NCBI RefSeq assembly: GCF_003966655.1
Contig: NZ_AP018795.1
Coordinates: 744,001 to 808,000, forward strand
DNA length: 64,000 bases
DNA from: Acidithiobacillus ferridurans
GTDB taxonomy: Bacteria; Pseudomonadota; Gammaproteobacteria; Acidithiobacillales; Acidithiobacillaceae
Direction: 5' to 3'
The notes under the pieces: generated by a model
What the model saw: the letters and a program-made list of their open reading frames with translations, nothing else
Databases searched by the model: none
Told to the model about the DNA's origin: nothing
Shown here: in pieces, positions 51,618 to 56,811 of the stretch
How positions within the stretch are numbered: position 1 is the first letter of the stretch
Layout: every line of letters begins with the position of its first letter
Translations under genes and position numbers: made by a program

Positions 51618-52729
51618 ATCTGCAACGCCTGCGCGGACTGATCCGCAAGGAATTCGTCCAGATCCTGCGCGACCCTTCCGCCATCGCCATCGCCTTTTTC
51701 ATGCCGGTGTTTTTGCTGTTTCTGTTTGGCTACGGTGTGTCTCTGGATGCCAAGCATGTGCCGGTCGCCGTCGTAGTGGATCAACCAACGGCGGAAACCA
51801 GTGCCTTCGTGGGCGGCTTGCAACAGTCCCCCTATTTCGAGCCACAGATATACACCAGCATGCACAGTGCCCGGCAGGCACTGATGGCACGCAAGGCCGA
51901 TGGCATCCTCTGGCTGCGCGAGGACTTCAGCCGCCAGATACTACGGGGAAATACCGCCTCCATCGGCGTTCTGATCAACGGGGTAGATGCCAACAATGCG
52001 CGCATTCTGGAGGGCTATCTGCAGGGCATCTGGCAGAACTGGCTGCAACAGCGCGCGCTCAATGCCGGAGCCCCGCTGATCATCCCGGTGAACGGCGAAG
52101 ACCGCATCTGGTTCAATCCCGCCCTGCGCAGCAGGGACTATCTGGTACCGGGTCTGATCGCGGTGATCATGACCCTCATTGGCGCCTTGCTGACCGCCTT
52201 GGTGGTGGCCCGTGAGTGGGAACGCGGCACCATGGAGGCCCTCATGGCCACTCCGGTCACCATGAGTGAGATTCTGCTGGGCAAACTGATTCCGTATTTT
52301 ATCATGGGCATGGGCGGTATGCTGCTCTCCGTGGCACTGGCCGTCTGGCTTTTCGCCGTCCCCCTGGTCGGCAGTTTCTGGGTGCTGCTCGCCTGCTCGG
52401 CGCTCTTTCTGCTGACGGCGCTGGGCATGGGGTTGCTGATTTCCAGTGTCGCCCGTAATCAGTTTGTGGCCGGGCAGATCGCCATCATCGTCACCTTTCT
52501 GCCCGCCTTTATTCTTTCGGGCTTCATCTTCGATATCCAGTCGATGCCGGCGGCCATCCGCATCATCACCCATATTGTCGCGGCCCGCTATTTCGTGAGT
52601 ATCCTGCAGACCATCTTCCTCGCCGGGGATGTCTGGCCCATCATTCTCTGGAACAGTCTGGCGCTGCTGCTGATGGCGGCGTTTTTCCTCGGCGTCACCT
52701 TGCGTCGTTCCCACAAGAGGCTGGACTGA
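51614..52729 (+). CDS. ABC-2 type permease (YbhS-like)
   Basis: A 371-residue permease: one N-terminal helix (IAFFMPVFLLFLFGYGVSLD), a large periplasmic domain (about 50-175), and five C-terminal helices from YLVPGLIAVIMTLIGALLTA, followed by the conserved LVVAREWERGTMEALMATPV. This is the ABC-2 exporter layout. It is coupled to the ATPase (ATGA overlap) and to the second permease (TGATG). Confidence 0.93.
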   Translation: MNLQRLRGLIRKEFVQILRDPSAIAIAFFMPVFLLFLFGYGVSLDAKHVPVAVVVDQPTAETSAFVGGLQQSPYFEPQIYTSMHSARQALMARKADGILWLREDFSRQILRGNTASIGVLINGVDANNARILEGYLQGIWQNWLQQRALNAGAPLIIPVNGEDRIWFNPALRSRDYLVPGLIAVIMTLIGALLTALVVAREWERGTMEALMATPVTMSEILLGKLIPYFIMGMGGMLLSVALAVWLFAVPLVGSFWVLLACSALFLLTALGMGLLISSVARNQFVAGQIAIIVTFLPAFILSGFIFDIQSMPAAIRIITHIVAARYFVSILQTIFLAGDVWPIILWNSLALLLMAAFFLGVTLRRSHKRLD

Positions 52730-53837
52730 TGCTAGCACGGGTCTGGGCCTTGGTCATCAAGGAATTCCTCGCGCTTTTGCGGGACAAGAAAAGCCGTTTC
52801 GTGCTCATCGGTCCACCCCTCATTCAGTTACTGGTCTTCGGCTATGCCGCCACTTTTGACCTGAGCCACATCCCCTATGCCGTCTACAACCAGGACACCG
52901 GATTTGCCTCCCGGAAACTGCTGGGGGATTTTCAAGGCTCTCCGGCTTTTCAGCAGGTGGCGACCATTACAAACGAGGGGCAGATAGCCCCGCTCATCGA
53001 TAACGAAAAGGCCCTGCTCGTCTTGCAGATCGGCCCCCACTTCACTCGCGACCTGCTGCTGCATCGGCCGGCTCCCGTGCAGGTGATCATGAATGGCCGC
53101 AACTCCAACACGGCCACTTTGGCCCTGAATTACGTCAATACGGTGCTGCTGTCCTTTGATACCCGTTGGGCCGCGGACCATCATTGGGGTCGGCCGCCGG
53201 CACAACTGGTGGTCCGTTCCTGGTTCAATCCCAATCTGCTGTCCCGCTGGTTTATTGTGCCGGGCATTGTGGCCCTGCTCATGCTGGTGGTAACGCTCCT
53301 GGTGACCGGCCTGTCGGTGGCGCGCGAGCGGGAGCAAGGAACCTTTGACCAGCTCCTGGTGACCCCCATGGATCCGGTGGAGATACTGGTGGGGAAAGCC
53401 CTGCCCGGGTTCATCATCGGGGGCTGGAAGGCAGCTTCATCGCCCTGGTGGCGGTGCTCTGGTTTCACGTGCCTTTTGTGGGCAGCATACTCGCACTACT
53501 GGTGGGTATGGCCCTGTTCCTGCTGGCGGCGGTAGGCATCGGCCTGATGATCTCCTCACTGGCGGTGACCCAGCAGCAAGGACTGCTGGGCGTGTTCCTC
53601 TTTCTGGTACCCGCCATTATCCTCTCGGGATTCGCCACCCCTATCGCGAATATGCCGGAACTGGTACAGGATCTGACCTATATCAACCCCATGCGCTATT
53701 TTCTGGTGATCGTGCGCGGGGTGTTTCTGGAGGGAGACAACATGTCCATGCTCTGGTCGCAATACTGGCCCCTGGCGCTCATCGCGATTTTCTCCATGAG
53801 CGCTGCCGCCTGGCTCTTCCGGCACAGGATGCAATGA
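52729..53837 (+). pseudogene. ABC-2 type permease (YbhR-like), frameshifted near 53422
   Basis: The first 230 residues (from ATG 52729) match the second permease of YbhGFSR exporters, through REREQGTFDQLLVTPMDPVE and ALPGFIIGG. Then the frame becomes Trp/Cys-rich and stops at 53535, while the -1 frame continues properly as GSFIALVAVLWFHVPFVGSI to an end at 53837 with LSGFATPIANMPELVQDL, the expected C-terminus. One missing base in the run GGGGGC (53419-53424) would join them (GGL-E-GSF). It could be a loss-of-function mutation or a homopolymer sequencing error; with the second permease broken the exporter would not work. Confidence 0.85.
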
Positions 53838-54347: not shown

Positions 54348-54629
54348 TCAGAGCGTTTTCGTGGAACGTGCCATGGCTGCAGTGATTTCTTCCGGACTCA
54401 GGTCTCCCGCAATATGGATTTGGGTGCCGTCCTCTCCCTGAACCACCTCCATACCCGTCACCTTGGCTTTGGTTTCAGCGCTCATGCAGTTGCATTGCCC
54501 GGTCTGGCAGTTTTCCACGATGGCAAAGACCTTTTTGGCCTCTACCGAGTTATCGACGTGTACGGCTACACCCTCGGCCGTTTTTTGTACGGTGCTGACA
54601 TCTTTGATGGTGCGATCACAGCAGGACAT
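54348..54629 (-). CDS. Small Cys-rich protein, possible metal binder
   Basis: A 93-residue soluble protein with five Cys in two groups: Cys3-Cys4 at the N-terminus and Cys41, Cys46, Cys48 in NCQTGQCNCMS. The rest is an alpha/beta mix (GVAVHVDNSVEAKKVFAIV; LSPEEITAAMARSTKTL). No known family comes to mind. A copper, iron or arsenic ligand role would fit the Cys arrangement and the metal-resistance neighbourhood, but that is only inference. AAGGAG lies seven bases before the ATG; own terminator downstream. Confidence 0.6.
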   Translation of the reverse strand: MSCCDRTIKDVSTVQKTAEGVAVHVDNSVEAKKVFAIVENCQTGQCNCMSAETKAKVTGMEVVQGEDGTQIHIAGDLSPEEITAAMARSTKTL

Positions 54630-54843
54630 GGCAATGCTCCTTTTCGGTCAAAGAAATAAGGTATCCCGAGCCAATGCCGGGCTTACCCTGCTTCCTTCAT
54701 GAGATTAATAATACTTGTACAATATACGTACTTTCGTTGACTCATTGCAATAGCGCACTTCATGGAACGATGTCACTTTCTCATCGCCGAGGCCTTCACT
54801 GCGGTCAACACCCTCGGCGCCCTGCTGCCAAGCACGGCAGGCT

Positions 54844-55086
54844 TCAGGCGCCGAGCAATTTCAAAACGTCACCTAACGGCTGAACGCCCACAGCTTTCAA
54901 GGTGCCATCCACCACCACCGCAGGAACGGTTTTGATGCGCAGTCGGCTGACGACCTCGCGACCATCCCGTTCAGCGACATCCAGAATCTGCAGGTCCATG
55001 GGTAATTTTTGTGCCGCTTCTGTCCAGATTCTTTCTGCCTGTGGGCAGGTGGGGCACCATTTCGACACCAATAGTTGCACTTTCAT
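54844..55086 (-). CDS. Thioredoxin/glutaredoxin-like small protein
   Basis: An 80-residue thioredoxin-fold protein starting MKVQLLVSKWCPTCPQAERI (55086). The active site C-P-T-C is intact and the cis-Pro loop is KTVPAVVVDG. Size and pattern resemble the small two-Cys thioredoxins (TrxA-like/redox-active disulfide family) found beside metal and sulfur genes. Ribosome binding site AGAGAGG lies six bases upstream. Divergent from the hemerythrin gene. Confidence 0.8.
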   Translation of the reverse strand: MKVQLLVSKWCPTCPQAERIWTEAAQKLPMDLQILDVAERDGREVVSRLRIKTVPAVVVDGTLKAVGVQPLGDVLKLLGA

Positions 55087-55169
55087 TTCCGACCTCTCTG
55101 GCGACATTGGGCTATGATTGCAGGAGCGGTAACCGTTTTACCCGCTCCACACTCAAAAAGGAGAGTACC

Positions 55170-55631
55170 GTGGGTAGCATAGATCAGATCATGCAACACG
55201 ACCATGAACGGCTGGACGCGCTTCTGGAAGCCTGCGCTACCGCCGTGCAGGAGAGTCGATGGCAAGATGCTGCCGGGCTTTTGGAACAGTTTCGTCGCGG
55301 CATCGTGGAGGGACATATGTTCGTGGAGGAAACGATGCTGTTTCCCGCATTCGAAGCGCTGGAGGGTGGCGACGAGCATTCCCTGACGGCCTTGCTGCGC
55401 AAAGGGCATCAGGACCTGCAGGTGTTCTTTCAAGAGATGGCCGAGGCCATAGAGGCGCAGGATGCCGAGGAGTTCAACGACTTCCTGAGCACGGTGCAGA
55501 CCATTCTCAAGCAGCATGACGCCAGGGAGGAGGCGGAACTCTATCCCCATCTGGCGGACGCCCTGCCGGATCACGGCGCCGCCGCAGCGCAGCGCATAGC
55601 AGATGGACCAAGGGAGAAAGGGAATGAGTGA
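55170..55631 (+). CDS. Hemerythrin HHE-domain protein
   Basis: A 153-residue four-helix protein starting at GTG 55170, seven bases after AAGGAG. Diiron ligands appear as His10/His12 (QHDHERL), His49 and Glu53 (EGHMFVEET), His80 (KGHQDL) and His115 with Glu119 nearby (KQHDAREEAELYP). Bacterial HHE proteins sense or store oxygen or nitric oxide, or repair iron-sulfur centres (YtfE/RIC-like). It overlaps the start of the GcvH-like gene by eight bases, so the two are probably made together. Confidence 0.88.
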   Translation: MGSIDQIMQHDHERLDALLEACATAVQESRWQDAAGLLEQFRRGIVEGHMFVEETMLFPAFEALEGGDEHSLTALLRKGHQDLQVFFQEMAEAIEAQDAEEFNDFLSTVQTILKQHDAREEAELYPHLADALPDHGAAAAQRIADGPREKGNE

Positions 55632-56070
55632 GTTTCAAGGCTGCCAGTTGCCGGAAGACCTCCATTATGATCTGGACTATGTCTGGGCACGTCCCGAGGA
55701 GGATGGCACCTTCACCATCGGCGTCACCGATCCGGCCCAGACAATGTCGGGGCGCTTGCAAAAGGCCCGCATCAAAAAGGTGGGCACCCACCTGGAGGCC
55801 GGTCGACACGTGGCCACCCTGGAGAGTGGCAAATGGGCCGGCGGCGTCCCGGTGCCTTTTGCCGGGACGGTGATAGCGCGCAACGACACGTTGCTGGAAA
55901 ATCCCCATTTCATCAACATCGACCCCTACGGCGATGCCTGGATCGCACGGGTGCAGCCTGACGATCCGGCCACGGCCCTGGAGCGCCTCCATACCGGCCC
56001 GGATGCCGTCGCGGCACTCCAGGCCTGGATCAAGCGCTATGACGTGCAATGCATGCGCTGTTCCGACTAA
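55624..56070 (+). CDS. GcvH-like lipoyl-domain protein
   Basis: A 148-residue protein with the GcvH fold: DLDYVWARPEEDGTFTIGVT at the N-terminus and a lipoyl-lysine hairpin where LESGKWAGG replaces the usual LESVKA, so Lys70 is the likely lipoylation site. The C-terminus ends YDVQCMRCSD with two Cys, absent from true GcvH. No other glycine-cleavage gene is present. In sulfur oxidisers, GcvH-like lipoate-binding proteins (LbpA) serve the sHdr sulfur-oxidation pathway, which may be the better comparison. Coupled to the hemerythrin gene. Confidence 0.82.
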   Translation: MSEFQGCQLPEDLHYDLDYVWARPEEDGTFTIGVTDPAQTMSGRLQKARIKKVGTHLEAGRHVATLESGKWAGGVPVPFAGTVIARNDTLLENPHFINIDPYGDAWIARVQPDDPATALERLHTGPDAVAALQAWIKRYDVQCMRCSD

Positions 56071-56160: not shown

Positions 56161-56670
56161 TCATGGAGATATGCCGTTGCGGTGCCGACGCGGCCAATGA
56201 TCGATGATGCTGAACGCCAGATGCAGTATCCACAACAACAACAGAAAGGCGGCCAGTGTGCGGTGCCAGGGCAGGAGATCTCCCGCTCCCCGCCACAGCA
56301 GGATACCCAGGATCACGGTCACGCTCGCCAGGAGCAGAAAGACCCCCGCCACAGCGGCGTCCAGCCCCTCGCGCAGGAGGGTGCCGTCGCGCCCCAAATG
56401 GCGCCACTGGCGAACGACCCGCCGCCGTGTCGTCGCCGAAAGTAGAAAGATCCGCGCCGCACTCCGCCGACCTGCCCCAGAGCCAAGGAGCCAGGACCAT
56501 TCACCGGCAAGGAAAAGCGCGGCAACCAGGCCGTCGATGATGTGGAAGGGCAGAAGCCAGATCCAGCCCAAGGCCAGGAGCAAACCCGAGGCGAGTTGCA
56601 GGGTCACCGTCAACACCACGCCGAGGAGCAGGAATATGGCCCAGGTCGGCCGACGCTCATCCCTCGCCAT
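56161..56670 (-). CDS. Membrane protein with helix-borne His residues, function unknown
   Basis: A 169-residue protein from MARDERRPTW (56670). Four hydrophobic segments: TWAIFLLLGVVLTVTLQLAS, GWIWLLPFHIIDGLVAALFL, AVAGVFLLLASVTVILGILL and LAAFLLLLWILHLAFSIIDH. His residues fall within helices 2 and 4 and before helix 4 (LLPWHRTL), as in b-type haem proteins, but I cannot assign it to the cytochrome b561/ferric reductase families. It lies at the end of the minus-strand tad run. A longer in-frame extension exists without better signals. Confidence 0.55.
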   Translation of the reverse strand: MARDERRPTWAIFLLLGVVLTVTLQLASGLLLALGWIWLLPFHIIDGLVAALFLAGEWSWLLGSGAGRRSAARIFLLSATTRRRVVRQWRHLGRDGTLLREGLDAAVAGVFLLLASVTVILGILLWRGAGDLLPWHRTLAAFLLLLWILHLAFSIIDHWPRRHRNGISP

Positions 56671-56811
56671 TGCGCCAGATCCTGCCCGAGCGGCGCCCGG
56701 CGTCAACCAAAAGGCTTTCGGCCACGGGGAACGCATCGGCACGCAGGCATTGGTGTAAGACGGCATACATGGCACAGGTCCCCAGTCCAGCGACCGTCTT
56801 CTTCCAATCAG

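Follow-up and report, generated by a model that had tools for sequence, protein, structure and literature searches.

The closest described relatives of the locus analysed here are the lipoate-binding proteins of the sHdr pathway and a predicted nitric oxide (NO) detoxification operon. LbpA1 and LbpA2 belong to the sHdr pathway, whose genes are given in the available part of one description in the order hdrC1B1A-hyp-hdrC2B2-lbpA1-dsrE-lbpA2 (PMC6382920). According to the accessible text of another, a Cys near each end of the protein marks LbpA as against GcvH, where these residues are absent, and a few shdr clusters carry three lbpA genes (PMC6067878). A study of 2005 predicted that the cgb-COG0543-COG0446 operon of A. 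ferrooxidans has a DNR site and detoxifies NO; its accessible sections also describe the box type as common to DNR and FNR (PMC1274295).

With these systems we compare a set of small genes of Acidithiobacillus ferridurans. The window, i.e. the whole stretch of DNA that was analysed, is 64,000 nucleotides long and covers positions 744,001-808,000 in a genome of 2.92 Mb that consists of one contig; the features of the set are numbered from its first base. All four adjacent small ORFs that an earlier note had grouped into a possible redox/iron-sulfur module are present where that note placed them.

The lipoyl protein and its family

The gene at 55624..56070 (forward strand) encodes a lipoyl carrier of 148 aa with a match to the Pfam family GCV_H (E 1.8e-32). 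The earlier note had called it GcvH-like, and membership of the family stands, but GcvH is not the best name, as the protein scores too low for either of the GcvH models in NCBIfam (79.7 bits against a cut-off of 115.85, and 109.9 against 117) and groups with LbpA. It is a third, dispersed branch of LbpA and not a glycine-cleavage GcvH. We refer to it as LbpA3, a label coined in the present analysis, and file it as a dispersed relative rather than as LbpA1 or LbpA2 because it is encoded away from the shdr cluster, at a distance of about 285 kb in the window's genome.

Four residues of LbpA3, namely Cys7, Lys70 (codon 55831-55833), Cys143 (56050-56052) and Cys146 (56059-56061), are invariant in 69 of 69 sequences (68 loci plus the window); the last two make up a C-terminal CxxC, and in the window sequence Lys70 is contained in the motif ESGKWAGG. 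Both marks of an LbpA are thus found in every sequence, i.e. the Cys near the ends (C7, C143 and C146) and the lipoate-site lysine (K70) in a GcvH-like domain. The fold agrees: the AlphaFold2 model has a pLDDT of 92.3, and its best PDB match is the lipoylated H protein of E. coli.

The window's genome encodes four GCV_H proteins, which are LbpA3, a copy at 2.122 Mb that clusters with GcvH in the tree, and a pair at 513.5-514.7 kb. The two members of the pair flank a DsrE-like gene in an shdr-like cluster, close to ORFs that we take to be ligase-like and radical-SAM-like; the ORFs of this cluster were named by eye, following the published gene order. LbpA3 resembles the LbpA pair in having the motif ESGKW, an N-terminal GC as well as a C-terminal Cys. 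The tree comprises 87 rows, and the 79 of LbpA type are separated from GcvH at 100/99. Within them, 49 LbpA3-type rows (a count that leaves out three GcvH rows) form one group with support of 92/93, which is below the star of the program. This group joins the LbpA1-type rows at 98/96, at a place where the program warns of long branches meeting, in a tree whose root is for drawing only.

Occurrence and gene neighbourhood

LbpA3 is present in 23 of the 29 genomes of the window's bacterial family at an identity of at least 77%, and three further genomes of the family have matches of 19-21 residues only. Scanning of contigs yielded 69 LbpA3 loci, many of them from metagenome-assembled genomes, with titles that include Acidithiobacillus, Sulfuriferula, Thiobacillus, Sideroxydans, Thioalkalivibrio, Acidihalobacter, Rhodobacteraceae and Defluviimonas. 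One locus (L161, a match of 21 residues at a contig end) was dropped, leaving 68, which are not independent, as much of the set comes from Acidithiobacillus and Thioalkalivibrio and near-identical relatives inflate its counts.

LbpA3 is nearly confined to organisms that carry the sHdr pathway. Among 369 genomes of the class, LbpA3 scores are bimodal, with 18 genomes at E 3.9e-63 or better and the next best at 1.1e-40. sHdrB1 (E 1e-60 or better) occurs in 22 of the 369, and these include 17 of the 18 LbpA3 carriers, the exception (G364) being a genome that is 75% complete; LbpA3 is absent from five of the 22. Among 38 carrier genomes of unstated completeness reached via the loci, at least three of which also belong to the class set (identical hit positions), sHdrB1 is found at E 1e-130 or better in 31, at weaker scores only in four and not at all in three. 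Neither the kinship with LbpA nor the co-occurrence with sHdr had been noticed in the earlier note.

In the window, the lipoyl gene overlaps by eight bases with the gene upstream of it, an overlap noted before. The upstream gene (55170..55631, forward strand) starts at a GTG picked by eye and encodes a hemerythrin-domain protein of 153 aa; its Pfam score (Hemerythrin, E 1.1e-14) comes from a 152-aa version starting at 55173. Divergent from it, across an intergenic stretch of 62 bases (55108..55169), lies the gene for the two-Cys thioredoxin-like protein (54844..55107, reverse strand), which was recognised as such from the start and carries CPTC in a Thioredoxin_3 domain (E 5e-12).

Counts of these neighbours in relatives are taken from tblastn, since ORF-based gene calling is noisy in GC-rich loci. 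Of the 33 full-length copies in the family, 32 have the hemerythrin gene immediately before the lipoyl gene (the exception is L038, and the remnants L068 and L069 are left out of the count). The pair, for which a neighbourhood survey had been proposed, is therefore conserved, and the objection that the two genes are never conserved together does not apply. In 64 of the 68 loci, a relative of the thioredoxin is encoded no more than 2 kb from the lipoyl gene; it is absent at that distance from L094, L098, L101 and L106, and a match farther than 2 kb is seen in one locus only. Hemerythrin is found within 2.5 kb in 52 loci and is absent at that distance in 16, a 4-helix COX1/NnrS-like protein is found within 1.5 kb in 33, and every one of the 68 has one or the other. 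Less frequent are a CRP/FNR regulator within 4 kb (31 loci), a reductase within 2.5 kb (17) and a globin within 3 kb (16).

Two arrangements can be distinguished. In arrangement A, thioredoxin (on either strand), hemerythrin and LbpA3 are often preceded by globin and reductase genes; in many relatives from the family the three follow a single-domain globin and a 2Fe-2S/FAD/NAD reductase, with LbpA3 often last. In arrangement B, LbpA3 comes after a 4-helix protein that is about 131 aa long and is itself followed by a thioredoxin to which a second 4-helix segment is fused, and hemerythrin is found within 2.5 kb in 17 of 33 loci. The 4-helix proteins match COX1 (1.8e-6) and NnrS (6.6e-4 and 0.004) in Pfam, in all cases under the cut-off; in these distant loci they reach 19.6 and 17.0 bits against NnrS PF05940, for which the cut-off is 28. 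As these matches lie below the cut-off, we can only infer that the proteins may be a kind of half-NnrS. A Pfam search of three flanking ORFs (from L117, L138 and L123) returned nothing.

Of the proposed four-protein module, the set of thioredoxin, hemerythrin and lipoyl protein survives; it is conserved, and its recurrence (64/68 and 32/33) is beyond chance. Membership of the Cys-rich protein is not supported. Its ORF (54348-54629, reverse strand) has no family above cut-off in Pfam or NCBIfam, and it was rejected as a core member, with an occurrence in only 6 of the 29 family genomes, in four of which (G000, G006, G007 and G011) it adjoins the thioredoxin gene. A possible accessory is a cytochrome b561-like membrane protein of 204 aa (56161..56775, reverse strand; Ni_hydr_CYTB, E 0.0093, below cut-off), a relative of which lies within 5.5 kb of the lipoyl gene in 7 of the 68 loci. 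Identification of the hemerythrin with the repair proteins RIC, DnrN or YtfE was considered and rejected, as it scores far under both cut-offs, with 21.4 of 204.7 bits for RIC (TIGR03652) and 19.9 of 300 for DnrN (NF041614). Compared with solved structures, its sequence has no relative at E 0.01.

DNR/FNR-type boxes, regulators and plasmid copies

Boxes of the form TTGAT-N4-ATCAA were counted as sites when at least 9 of the 10 bases matched, a threshold chosen after a first look. The sample consisted of 45 loci outside the named family records (L115-L160 without L122, same family), from which L143 and L154 were dropped for too little upstream sequence. In the remaining 43 loci, 34 sites fall in the region 330-720 bases before LbpA3 (16,770 bp in total), compared with 30 in the other 553,644 bp of the loci. 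The box is present in 33 of the 43, with L135 and L136 counted via a site inside the 4-helix gene, and no box of at least 9 is present in the other 10. Globin genes give a similar picture: one plasmid stretch and 46 family loci together contain 35 such genes with 200 bases upstream, 30 of them preceded by a box with 9-10 of 10 matches and the other five by one with 8 of 10, at -76 to -140. As DNR and FNR share this box, its presence alone fits either NO or oxygen lack as the signal.

Among the CRP/FNR neighbours, those of one cluster all (24 of 24) contain an ExxSR helix, with 0-4 Cys each; FNR needs four set Cys. Compared with NCBIfam, two of the CRP/FNR neighbours score best with FtrB, with Fnr behind and none over the cut-off.

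In the window itself, the three-gene set stands apart from the globin operon and is without a box. No site of at least 9 of 10 is found near it, including the intergenic stretch 55108..55169, or in locus L035; a box is present at the place matching this stretch in L123, L126, L127, L129 and L138. Elsewhere in the window's genome, an operon of the cgb kind, with globin, reductase, Pyr_redox_2 protein, DUF488 and regulator genes, occupies 2.026-2.030 Mb and has its box at 2,030,344, and a further box at 2,360,629 precedes an hcp match by about 65 bases. The exact pattern TTGAY-N4-RTCAA occurs at 13 places in this genome.

LbpA3 is also plasmid-borne. Plasmid p1 of A. ferrooxidans YNTRS-40 (47 kb) encodes, in this order and with other genes in between, globin, reductase, thioredoxin, hemerythrin, “GcvH”, DUF2249, a second hemerythrin, an Hdr-type protein, DUF488, a carboxymuconolactone-decarboxylase-family protein, a Crp/Fnr regulator, hcp, a second reductase and NnrS. 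A 28 kb stretch of p1 carries four sites of at least 9, before globin, before DUF2249, before hcp and within NnrS. Over 446 aa, the Hdr-type protein shares 88% identity with an sHdrB2-like protein of the window's genome, which favours a role in sulfur metabolism. LbpA3 is found at 81.8% identity on two more A. ferrooxidans plasmid records, and the 36 other matches in the plasmid collection are below 60%; the plasmid LbpA3 is annotated as “glycine cleavage system protein H”. Canonical NnrS occurs in 11 of 18 LbpA3 carriers versus two of five sHdr genomes without LbpA3, and hcp in two of 18 versus one of five, and on these counts canonical NnrS and hcp do not track LbpA3.

Possible function and relation to known systems

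We propose, with about even confidence, that thioredoxin, hemerythrin and lipoyl protein are a nitrosative/low-oxygen stress module of sHdr sulfur oxidisers that works as a lipoyl-dithiol relay; the neighbours, and in part the control, are fixed by the evidence better than the chemistry, which is inferred. Among the stresses named in the earlier note, NO (or low oxygen, given the same box type) is the best supported, on the basis of the boxes, the precedent of the predicted NO operon and the plasmid context. A thiol relay is suggested by the presence together of a lipoyl arm, two CxxC sites and a hemerythrin under an NO/anoxia-type box, combined with the chemistry described in the available parts of two papers, where reactive nitrogen species modify lipoyl arms and lipoate helps make HNO from NO (PMC9974485, PMC10444860). 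In such a relay, Lys70 would be lipoylated by the machinery of the sHdr cluster, which for LbpA proteins means sLpl(AB) with LipS1/LipS2, and the neighbouring CRP/FNR regulator would be a DNR-type NO sensor. The reduced lipoyl arm might then react with NO-derived thiol adducts (S-nitrosothiols, HSNO or persulfide adducts), and the resulting disulfide would be handed to the CxxC tail of LbpA3 and reset by thioredoxin. The hemerythrin may capture NO or O2, or supply iron to damaged clusters, while free NO would be removed by globin and reductase. Several observations count against a stress role: the window pair is without a box, the box is absent from 10 of 43 loci, NnrS and hcp do not track LbpA3 and the hemerythrin is unlike RIC/DnrN. 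To these may be added, from sequence comparison, the failure of the regulators to reach any NCBIfam cut-off and the apparent sHdrB2-like paralogue on p1.

A narrower proposal, which we consider unlikely, is that this third, NO-induced LbpA is a nitroso-/persulfide-thiol reductase. Its dihydrolipoyl arm would take NO from thiols (or HSNO formed from sulfide and NO), the CxxC tail would give the disulfide on to a thioredoxin, and NO/HNO would be disposed of by the diiron or haem-type membrane protein next to it, so that sulfur metabolism is shielded. If true, lipoate would have a role beyond 2-oxoacid complexes, glycine cleavage and sHdr.

LbpA3 could instead be a spare sulfur carrier, replacing LbpA1/LbpA2 as the sHdr sulfane-sulfur carrier at low oxygen or with nitrate as acceptor; thioredoxin and the membrane haem-type protein would route electrons, and the NO genes would adjoin because nitrate-dependent growth brings both. 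The near-exclusive co-occurrence with sHdrB1, the sister position to the LbpA1 type in the tree and the sHdrB2-like paralogue on the plasmid all fit this explanation, as do a rhodanese gene downstream in Thioalkalivibrio (L140) and the narH-like and DsrE-like genes that adjoin copies in L052, L053 and L065. It is possible but rather unlikely, considering the roughly 285 kb that separate LbpA3 from the shdr cluster in the window's genome, the five of 22 sHdr genomes without LbpA3, and the hemerythrin, globin and NnrS-like partners, which fall outside the published sHdr clusters as far as the available part of PMC6067878 describes them. That a hemerythrin domain adjoins a sulfur-capable carrier would also suit repair of iron-sulfur clusters, an option raised in the earlier note, in which hemerythrin gives iron and the lipoyl arm gives sulfane sulfur to clusters damaged by NO or O2, with thioredoxin as reductant. 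The sHdr clusters would be the natural client, as supplied by the co-occurrence, and DnrN belongs to NO regulons in the accessible sections of PMC1274295. However, the hemerythrin scores far below the RIC and DnrN cut-offs, and the 16 of 68 loci with no hemerythrin within 2.5 kb speak against repair as well, making it quite improbable. It is scarcely credible that the protein is simply a GcvH paralogue serving glycine cleavage and that its neighbours are unrelated: the GCV_H family, the fold and the plasmid annotation would agree with it, but both GcvH cut-offs are missed, another GcvH is encoded at 2.122 Mb, the LbpA types split from GcvH at 100/99 and the neighbours recur across lineages.

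What is new here is a third branch of a known kind of protein, LbpA, in a new gene setting. Among open-licence papers, we found no description that joins a lipoate-binding protein with hemerythrin or with bacterial NO defence, and the available parts of PMC6067878, PMC10332631, PMC1274295, PMC6382920, PMC6335251, PMC10531304 and PMC12423496 contain no third LbpA outside shdr. Few roles are known for lipoate, and an LbpA branch outside the sulfur pathway, linked in two arrangements to thioredoxin, diiron and NO-type genes and also plasmid-borne, points to a further, testable one. This suggests that a cofactor of sulfur oxidation also serves in defence, and that some genes of sulfur oxidisers annotated as “glycine cleavage system protein H” are misnamed.

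With GcvH of glycine cleavage, LbpA3 shares the fold and the Pfam family; it differs in failing both NCBIfam cut-offs, in its branch of the tree and in having a separate GcvH beside it in the same genome. The NnrS and RIC/DnrN/YtfE-type proteins of NO regulons have the hemerythrin domain in common with the set, although the window hemerythrin is far below the cut-offs for RIC and DnrN, and the 4-helix partners, while weakly similar to NnrS, are small and below its cut-off. The cgb operon of A. ferrooxidans has the same globin/reductase head and the same box type as the operons in relatives. Thioredoxin, hemerythrin and lipoyl protein are not mentioned in the accessible sections of that prediction, whereas in many relatives they follow the reductase; the NO-defence operon predicted in 2005 gains neighbours (PMC1274295). 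Closest of all are LbpA1 and LbpA2 of the sHdr pathway, which, as portrayed in the available text of PMC6067878 and PMC10332631, resemble LbpA3 in the GcvH-like fold, the lipoyl-site lysine and ESGKW. One Cys near each end and hosts that nearly all have sHdr are further points of likeness. LbpA3 differs from both in being encoded away from shdr on its own branch of the tree, in its C-terminal CxxC, present in all 69 sequences, and in its linkage to thioredoxin, hemerythrin, and NnrS-like or globin genes.

Open reading frames flanking the set

The Cys-rich protein encoded at positions 54348-54629 of the window is 93 aa long and belongs to no known family. It is present in six of the 29 genomes of the bacterial family that includes Acidithiobacillus, and in four of those six it adjoins the thioredoxin gene. 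An ABC-type permease gene at 52729-53837 appears as two ORFs of 268 and 129 aa; L036 and L037, both close relatives, have a single ORF of 369 aa there, and the window copy is probably a broken gene. The membrane protein at 56161-56775 is cytochrome b561-like, and in some other loci, too, relatives of it are encoded close to the lipoyl gene.

Copies and remnants of the lipoyl gene

Genome G016 carries four copies of the LbpA-type lipoyl carrier (L050, L051, L052 and L053), identical at 145-147 of 148 residues. ORFs named by eye as ParA-like and ParB-like lie near one of them, a setting that resembles that of a mobile element. Lipoyl protein matches are only 19-21 residues long in G019, G001 and G005 (loci L068 and L069 among them). 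Globin and reductase genes still stand beside the short match in G001 (L069), the arrangement that loss of the tail genes would leave behind.

Neighbours in Thioalkalivibrio and on the plasmid

Near the lipoyl gene of Thioalkalivibrio, a single protein (L139:5167-5874) carries a hemerythrin domain and DUF2249, which we take to be COG4309, the DUF2249 score being slightly under the cut-off. On the A. ferrooxidans plasmid, DUF2249 and hemerythrin are encoded by separate adjoining genes. PMC1274295 links COG4309 to NO reductase genes.

The stretch of plasmid p1 of A. ferrooxidans YNTRS-40 (L190) also encodes an sHdrB2-like paralogue (L190:16364-17704), 88% identical to the chromosomal type, and a carboxymuconolactone decarboxylase family protein (L190:18449-18907). 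The latter shares the motif CxxCxxxH with AhpD, which is reducible by lipoyl proteins.
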